From a candidate division KSB1 bacterium (GTDB lineage Bacteria; Zhuqueibacterota; Zhuqueibacteria; JANLFK01; Oleimicrobiaceae): 64,000 nt of DNA. Location of the stretch: assembly GCA_024655945.1 (NCBI GenBank), contig JANLFK010000001.1, forward strand, positions 310,001 through 374,000, given 5' to 3'. How positions within the stretch are numbered: the first letter of the stretch is position 1; every line of letters starts with the position of its first letter. A program made the position numbers and the translations under genes. This document shows, in pieces, positions 61,244 to 64,000 of the stretch. The notes below the pieces were generated by a model. That model made no database searches, was not told where the DNA came from, and saw only the letters and a list, made by a program, of their open reading frames with translations.

Positions 61244-62623
61244 CTACTTCTTGGACTGGATTACCTCGCCATTGAGCGCAGGGGCCTCGGGTATGAAACC
61301 CTGCTTCATGAGCATCTGCACCTCTTCCCGCGCGCGTCGTATGGTGGCAGAAGCCTTCTCAAAGGCCTGTTCTCGGCTCAGTTTGATGCGCGCCACACCC
61401 TGCTCGATGGCCTTCTGTCCCACGGCCACGGCCTCGCGCGGGTAGACCTCCCACTCGTCCATGGTGGGGATGATGTACTCCTCGTGCAGCCCTTTGTCCT
61501 CCGCGCACTTGGCCAACTCGTAGGAAGCGGCAATGCACATCTCGTCGGTGATGGTGCTGGCGGCAACGTCAAGCGTGCCGCGGAAGATGCCTGGGAAGCC
61601 CAAGGAATTGTTGATCTGGTTGGGAAAATCCGAGCGCCCGGTGGCCACGATGCGCGCGCCGGCCTCCTTTGCCTCCCACGGCCAGATCTCGGGGATGGGA
61701 TTGGCGCACACGAACACGATGGCGTCCCGGCTCATCTTCGCGATCGACTCTTTCTTGATCACCCCTGGCCCGGAGCGCGACAGGGCGATGAGCACGTCGG
61801 CCGCTTCTATCCCCTCCTCGAAGGGTACGTCCACCCCTTCGGCATTGGTCTGCTCGCACAGATGCCACTTCTGCGGCTCCTCGTGGATGAACTCGGTGCG
61901 GGACTTGTTCAGAGGGCCTTTGCTGTCGTAGACGATCATCCGGCCGGGATTGACGCCCACGTGCATGAGCAGGCGAGCCACCGCCACATTCGATGCGCCG
62001 GCGCCATAGAGCACGATCTTGAGCTGATTGATCTTCTTGCCCACCAGCTTGACGGCATTGATGAAGCCGGCCACGGTAACGGCCGCAGTCCCCTGCTGGT
62101 CATCATGCCAGACTGGGATGTGGCACTCCTGGCGCAGACGGTCCAGGATATAGAAACACTTCGGCTTGGCAATGTCCTCGAGGTTGATGCCGCCAAAGGT
62201 GGGCTGCAAAATCTTCACCGTGCGGATGAACTCCTCGGCATCCTTAGTGTCCAGGCACAAGGGGAAGGCATCGACCCCGCCGAGGTACTTGAAAAGGATG
62301 GCCTTCCCTTCCATGACCGGCATGCCCGCCTCTGGGCCGATGTCGCCGAGACCAAGCACGCGCGTGCCATCGGTGATGACGGCCACCAGGTTGGCTTTGT
62401 TCGTGTATTCGAGAACCTTCTCCGGGTCCGATTGAATGGCCTTGCACGGTTCAGCCACGCCGGGCGTGTACCAGATGGCGAAATCATCAAAGCTGCGGAT
62501 GCAGCACTTGGGGACGATCTCGATCTTGCCCCGGTAGAAGGGGTGAAGTCGCATTGCCTCTTTGGCCGGACGGTATGCCTTCGCCAACAACTCATCGGTG
62601 TTCAGCTTCTTCGCAGTTGCCAT
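61244..62623 (-). CDS. NAD(P)-dependent malic enzyme (oxaloacetate-decarboxylating)
   Basis: The 459-residue protein has the short bacterial/archaeal malic-enzyme form. 'WYTPGVAEPCKAI' is followed by 'LGDIGPEAGMPVMEGKAILFK', the catalytic-site 'HDDQQGTAAVTVAGFINA', and the Rossmann motif 'VLYGAGASNVAVA'. It converts malate to pyruvate and CO2. The ATG at 62623 follows AAAGGCAG; the GTG eight codons earlier is less likely. No phosphotransacetylase domain is fused. It lies downstream of a structured leader or small RNA unit (62691-62867). Confidence 0.93.
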   Translation of the reverse strand: MATAKKLNTDELLAKAYRPAKEAMRLHPFYRGKIEIVPKCCIRSFDDFAIWYTPGVAEPCKAIQSDPEKVLEYTNKANLVAVITDGTRVLGLGDIGPEAGMPVMEGKAILFKYLGGVDAFPLCLDTKDAEEFIRTVKILQPTFGGINLEDIAKPKCFYILDRLRQECHIPVWHDDQQGTAAVTVAGFINAVKLVGKKINQLKIVLYGAGASNVAVARLLMHVGVNPGRMIVYDSKGPLNKSRTEFIHEEPQKWHLCEQTNAEGVDVPFEEGIEAADVLIALSRSGPGVIKKESIAKMSRDAIVFVCANPIPEIWPWEAKEAGARIVATGRSDFPNQINNSLGFPGIFRGTLDVAASTITDEMCIAASYELAKCAEDKGLHEEYIIPTMDEWEVYPREAVAVGQKAIEQGVARIKLSREQAFEKASATIRRAREEVQMLMKQGFIPEAPALNGEVIQSKK

Positions 62624-62690
62624 CGTTCTGCCTTTCTGTTGTGACACCTACCAAGCCAAGAACCCTCTTCCCCCAGCTCGTGGGCCAAAT

Positions 62691-62717
62691 AGAAAAAGCA
62701 GGCGCGCTGAAGCCTGC
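62691..62717 (-). terminator. Intrinsic terminator ahead of the malic enzyme gene
   Basis: On the minus strand GCAGGC, 8-base loop, GCCTGC is followed by TTTTTCT. It ends the RNA started at the promoter at 62874-62902 and lies 68 bp before the malic enzyme ATG. Confidence 0.8.
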
Positions 62718-62867
62718 CTACACTCTCACCCGGTCGTGGCTTCTCCCATTTTCGCACGCCTCTGGACCGCGCTCGGCTGCAGCATCCTCGCGGCAAGCCG
62801 GCCCCCCTTGGGGCGCCCTGGGTGTCAGCTTCCCCTTGCGGCACCCGATCCGTCGCGCCTATGATGG
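62691..62867 (-). ncRNA. Candidate structured small RNA or attenuating leader (about 175 nt)
   Basis: The unit runs from a sigma-70 promoter to an intrinsic terminator with no coding content. A perfect 7-bp closing helix joins 62854-62860 with 62700-62706, and an inner helix (one bulge) joins 62826-62832 with 62709-62716. Further pairing is possible (GGGTGT at 62820-62825 with 62720-62731; CGGCT/AGCCG in the middle). The 3' strands of both helices overlap the terminator stem, so the two folds exclude each other. This is the design of a riboswitch or attenuator; a 6S-like free RNA is the other reading. No known class could be assigned by eye. Confidence 0.55.
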
Positions 62868-62873
62868 CCGTCT

Positions 62874-62902
62874 ATTATACCAAAAAAATCTCTAAAAGTC
62901 AA
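62874..62902 (-). promoter_or_regulatory. Near-consensus sigma-70 promoter
   Basis: TTGACT (62897-62902), 17-base spacer, TATAAT (62874-62879). Transcription would start near 62867. Confidence 0.85.
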
Positions 62903-62984: not shown

Positions 62985-64000
62985 CTATCGGTAGAGCAGG
63001 GACTTCTGGCGAACTTTCATAAAGTCGTCCAGCGCCGGCTGCCATTGGCGCATGATCTCCTGGGCGCTGTGCCCCTCTAGGAGGGCCTTGCGAACCTTGT
63101 CGGTGCCCATGGCACGGTCAAAGCTATCCGGGCGGTAGCGGCTCCGATCGAAGAGGTCGACCTGCGGGTAGAGCTTGCGCAGGGCCGCCAAAATGTGCAT
63201 TTGCGTCTCCATCGGCCGGAATGCTCGGGGGTCGGTTATGTGAATCTGTACGCCATGAAGCTGCTTGTCCTTGAACCGAAAGTAGTAGGGACGGAAATAC
63301 TGCGGGCGGAAGACCACGCCAGGCAAAGCCTGGGCATTGAGATGGTCTGCCAGGGCCTGGCCATCGGTAAACTCGTCGGCAACAAGCTCAAAGGGGAGCG
63401 TGTAGCCCACTCCCTCGCAGATCCCCAGCTCGCCAAGGCAGCCAGTGGCCGGGTAGAAAAGGGCGGTCTCGGCGTGGGGGATGTGAGGAGAGGTCGGCAC
63501 CCAGGGCAACCCGGTATCCGCAAAGAGCATATCCCGTCGCCATCCCTCCATAGGCACCACCGTCAGCTCGCAGTTGATGCCAAACTCACGATTGAAAAGC
63601 ATGGCCAGCTCGCCCACCGTCATGCCGTAGGTGTACGGGATCGGGTAGCGGCCGATGCCCGATTCGAACCCATGCTCCAGAACCGGGCCTTCGACCAGCA
63701 GCCCACCCACGGGGTTCGGGCGGTCGAGCACCACAAAAGGGATTTTTTGGGCAGCAGCCGCCTCCATGGACGAGGCCATGGTGTAGATGTAGGTGTACGT
63801 GCGCGAGCCTATGTCCTGGATGTCATAGACCAACACGTCCACGTCCTTGAGCATCTCGGCAGTAGGTTTGCTGCGGCGGCCGTAGAGACTGTACACTGGC
63901 AACCCAGTGCGAGCATCGACAAAGTCGCTCACCTGCTCTCCGGCGAAGACGTCGCCGCGCACGCCATGCTCCGGGCCAAACAGGGCAACCAGCTTCACGC
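62985..64000 (-). CDS. namZ: Exo-beta-N-acetylmuramidase NamZ-like (DUF1343), partial at right edge
   Basis: At least 337 residues, with the N-terminus beyond the window. 'VALFGPEHGVRGD', 'PVYSLYG', 'VYDIQDIGSRTYTYIYTM' and 'VVLDRPNPVGG' define the DUF1343 family, of which NamZ removes terminal MurNAc from cell-wall fragments. The C-terminal domain is complete and ends 83 bp upstream of the promoter at 62874-62902. The GTG at 63998 is probably internal, because family members start about 50 residues earlier with a signal peptide. Confidence 0.88.
   Translation of the reverse strand, partial: VKLVALFGPEHGVRGDVFAGEQVSDFVDARTGLPVYSLYGRRSKPTAEMLKDVDVLVYDIQDIGSRTYTYIYTMASSMEAAAAQKIPFVVLDRPNPVGGLLVEGPVLEHGFESGIGRYPIPYTYGMTVGELAMLFNREFGINCELTVVPMEGWRRDMLFADTGLPWVPTSPHIPHAETALFYPATGCLGELGICEGVGYTLPFELVADEFTDGQALADHLNAQALPGVVFRPQYFRPYYFRFKDKQLHGVQIHITDPRAFRPMETQMHILAALRKLYPQVDLFDRSRYRPDSFDRAMGTDKVRKALLEGHSAQEIMRQWQPALDDFMKVRQKSLLYR

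Follow-up and report, generated by a model that had tools for sequence, protein, structure and literature searches.

A probable attenuator-like leader upstream of the malic enzyme gene in a candidate division KSB1 bacterium

The malic enzyme locus

The window analysed here is a 64,000-nucleotide stretch of contig JANLFK010000001.1, in which the malic enzyme gene occupies 61244-62623 on the minus strand (ATG at 62623; PF00390 and PF03949). Its upstream neighbour at 62985-63998, also on the minus strand, encodes a NamZ-type exo-beta-N-acetylmuramidase (PF07075, PF20732). Three genomes of the genus were compared, namely this one (G000), its nearest relative (G001) and a further species (G002). 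In all three, malic enzyme follows namZ, and the malic enzymes of G001 and G002 are 98% and 94% identical to that of G000. The leader of G001 was matched by a DNA search, and the matching region of G002 was located by synteny. The original prediction for this intergenic region described an orphan unit made of a promoter, a structured RNA with mutually exclusive folds and a terminator. All of the named sequences exist on the minus strand at the predicted positions, but the fold, the 7-bp helix and the competing 8-bp pairings turned out to be at the level of chance. The term orphan does not apply either, as the only detected promoter and the malic enzyme gene flank the unit directly.

The last 42 nt before the ATG (62624-62665, minus strand), which include the presumed ribosome-binding site, form a conserved part of the 5' UTR in the alignments with G001 and G002. 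All 41 aligned bases are identical between G000 and G001 (P = 1.3e-5 against the neutral rate), and 30 of 39 are identical with G002. This stretch is conserved far above the leader, perhaps beyond what a ribosome-binding site needs. In G001 a single inserted base puts an upstream GTG out of frame, which rules out a start there and makes the stretch non-coding. The motif occurs once per genome, and thus is not regulon-wide at that stringency.

Promoter and terminator-like hairpin

A sigma-70-type promoter, TTGACT-17-TATAAT, lies at 62874-62902 on the minus strand, with 11 of 12 consensus matches and an extended -10 element (TG before the -10). From its position, the transcript is expected to start at about 62867. 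The promoter's own consensus, TTGAC-N14-TTGGTATAAT, has its only perfect genome-wide match at this site; with up to two mismatches allowed it matches 53 sites in the genome, against 0 for a reversed control pattern. An 11/12 promoter with an identical spacer is found at the corresponding position in G001 (L003) and G002 (L004), and no second promoter ahead of the malic enzyme gene was detected in any of the three species. The malic enzyme promoter is above chance, and the near-consensus promoter of the original prediction was confirmed.

Downstream, the predicted hairpin AGGCAGGC-(8)-GCCTGCTT spans 62696-62719 on the minus strand and is followed by a T-rich tail that extends to about 62686. 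The malic enzyme ATG is 72 nt past the hairpin. Terminators of this kind were found in 3 of 3 real leaders, compared with 2.4, 2.0 and 6.6% of shuffled leaders in the three species, so that by its sequence the terminator-like hairpin is above chance. The stem GCAGGC/GCCTGC is kept in G000, in G001 (with one G-U pair) and in G002, and the loops differ. In every species the stem leads into a T-rich tail, in which the T-tracts of G001 and G002 are weak and interrupted. In the predicted whole-leader ensemble the terminator stem has a probability of 0.13 in G000, 0.00 in G001 and 1.00 in G002. The interrupted T-tracts and the unequal ensemble probabilities suggest that terminator strength may vary among species.

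The leader interior

The interior of the leader (62720-62873, minus strand) appears weakly constrained in the comparison with four-fold sites of G001 and in the G002 alignment. The fold of the leader is no better than that of shuffled sequence (z = +1.1; 175 of 200 shuffles fold equally well or better). Across the three species the z values were 0.52, -0.05 and -1.49, near those of shuffles in G000 and G001, and the folds of the three leaders differ from one another. The proposed 7-bp closing helix is formed by AGGCGCG at 62854-62860 and CGCGCCT at 62700-62706 (minus strand), 147 nt apart. It is judged to be a chance match, since shuffled leaders hold a mean of 1.6 perfect 7-bp helices (P of at least one = 0.71); the chance that the first 30 nt hold a 7-bp match to the terminator is P = 0.07. 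In G001 the helix survives only through two G-U wobbles, and no equivalent was found in the G002 leader.

As for the proposed mutually exclusive folds, 7 rival 8-bp pairings with the terminator were observed (counting G-U pairs) against 6.3 expected. The full-length folds of G000 and G001 bury the terminator strands. One candidate antiterminator strand, GGCTTGCC at 62792-62799 (minus strand), could pair with the 5' strand of the terminator, for which the duplex energies give a weak indication: P = 0.056 in G000, 0.022 in G001 (where the position is shifted and the value is not independent of that of G000) and 0.74 in G002, which lends the pairing no support. No conserved sensor was found in the leaders of the three species. 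Attenuation by a leader peptide was considered and rejected because inspection revealed no short reading frame common to the three leaders.

Conservation within and beyond the genus

The order of promoter, hairpin and ATG behind namZ is the same in all three species of the genus. Between G000 and G001, 108 of 148 interior positions are identical (0.73), compared with 0.76 at 212 four-fold synonymous sites, which indicates that the leader interior drifts at the neutral rate. The ungapped identity between G000 and G002 is 0.72 against 0.66 for shuffled alignments (P = 0.15), no better than chance, and the interior alignment of G001 with G002 gives P = 0.05 against shuffled sequence. Presence in related genomes was therefore borne out for the promoter and the hairpin, but not for the interior, which is unalignable with G002 beyond chance. 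In the consensus fold of G000 and G001, four two-sided changes were counted, where column shuffles give 2.9 (P = 0.28, from two alignable sequences and hence of low power), so covariation in the leader is at chance level. The energy of this consensus fold, at z = -2.4 relative to column shuffles and z = -1.8 when the terminator is left out, is somewhat low.

Outside the genus, a DNA search of 99 genomes returned no homologue of the leader, the other matches being short and mostly promoter-like. The next most similar malic enzymes are 54% identical. No terminator-like site was found upstream of malic enzyme in L006, and in L005 the roughly 240 bases upstream of malic enzyme were scanned for reading frames. 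A search against Rfam, for which the original prediction had called, gave no gathering match in the window (permissive thresholds added one chance-level snoRNA match, E = 2.6) and none in L003 or L004.

In-genome scan and the FMN riboswitch

A scan for a promoter, a terminator and a start codon in this order was run over 464 kb of the same genome, covering 152 upstream regions. It returned four units, upstream of malic enzyme, fba, ribD and one gene with a tRNA in its upstream stretch. The ribD unit is an FMN riboswitch (RF00050, 102.9 bits; G000:C1:229949-230077, minus strand, L200), which surfaced from the scan without prior knowledge. Because this unit is a genuine riboswitch, the promoter-terminator-start architecture marks attenuators in this genome. 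The FMN riboswitch has the same promoter-leader-terminator-start codon layout as the malic enzyme unit and is present in all three genomes, where its aptamer is 90-95% identical. A true aptamer is thus easily recognised at such distances, and the interior of the malic enzyme leader, which lacks this conservation, behaves otherwise.

The fba unit (fructose-bisphosphate aldolase, with gap adjoining; G000:C1:90756-91682, minus strand; L138, L154; L155, L156, L161 and L162) has a promoter with 12/12 matches and, 37 nt ahead of the ATG, a textbook terminator hairpin, both kept in the three members of the genus. Two genomes of another family have a terminator-like hairpin with a different stem at a similar place before fba (45 nt before the ATG). 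As an attenuator candidate, fba looks stronger than the malic enzyme leader.

Interpretation of the unit

Since the unit sits between the only detected promoter and the ATG in each species, its most natural reading is as a 5' leader that contains a premature terminator, and on the present sequence evidence it is probably a transcription attenuator of the malic enzyme gene. The attenuating leader of the original prediction is supported in this sense by the position, the promoter and the terminator conserved in three species. Further support comes from the preservation of the terminator stem while the interior drifts neutrally. RNA polymerase would start near 62867 from the strong housekeeping promoter, transcribe about 150 nt and then encounter the GC-rich hairpin with its T-rich tail. 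Part of the polymerase would presumably stop there and free an RNA of about 175 nt, and the remainder would continue into the malic enzyme gene. The data fit a constitutive brake and a regulated one equally well.

An ordinary built-in transcription brake looks more likely than either special RNA that the original prediction had in mind. A new class of riboswitch that controls malic enzyme and includes the long-range closing helix in its aptamer would match the layout of promoter, long leader and terminator known from terminator-type riboswitches, and the somewhat low consensus fold energy of G000 and G001 leans the same way. Such a reading is nevertheless the most improbable of those considered: the interior evolves at the neutral rate, two-sided changes are at chance level, the single-sequence folds of G000 and G001 are near shuffles, the DNA search of 99 genomes gave no homologue beyond the genus, and the FMN aptamer is strongly conserved across these three genomes. 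Scarcely more probable is an independent small RNA, 6S-like or not and about 175 nt long, whose place upstream of malic enzyme would be coincidental. In G000 and G001, the promoter and the terminator would bound a distinct transcript about as long as 6S RNA, but in G002 it is only about 130 nt long, with an unalignable interior, and a separate malic enzyme promoter was not detected. Moreover, matches to 6S RNA (RF00013) above the Rfam cut-off lie elsewhere in all three genomes. The one in G000, at C2:452180-452368, means that the malic enzyme unit is not needed as 6S RNA. The leader of G000 resembles 6S RNA in transcript length (about 175 nt), but it has no RF00013 match, and no rod with a central bubble is conserved across the three leaders.

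A 5' UTR stem, for example an mRNA-stabilising element or a processing site, in a leader that has no working terminator and no switching role, is unlikely, though a more serious competitor. The weak T-tracts of G001 and G002 and the burial of the terminator strands in the full-length folds of G000 and G001 are consistent with it; the T-rich tail after the stem in every species and the location of the hairpin far downstream of the expected 5' end argue against it. A more elaborate form of attenuation can be considered only with much reserve: a genus-specific, fast-evolving RNA attenuator that would tune malic enzyme through an antiterminator helix whose position has moved between species, possibly within a broader reliance of central carbon genes on leader terminators (malic enzyme, fba-gap).

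Relation to known attenuators and significance

An established class of uncharacterised 5' terminators is conserved by synteny, with sensors that evolve rapidly (Naville and Gautheret 2010, PMC2965389). The attenuator-like malic enzyme leader shares with them the promoter-terminator-start codon arrangement, the syntenic position and the fast-evolving upstream part, and differs in that it is known from one genus and has no identified signal. The main text of PMC2965389 has no match for 'malic', and literature searches turned up no malic enzyme attenuator. The leader is probably a lineage-restricted new instance of these uncharacterised 5'-terminator attenuators.

A promoter, a long leader, a terminator and plausible alternative folds are not by themselves evidence for a new riboswitch. 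A neutral reference from synonymous sites, together with an FMN riboswitch as a positive control within the genome, can distinguish a terminator that is conserved from an interior that is not. If the attenuation is real, premature termination may control central carbon genes in this little-studied lineage.
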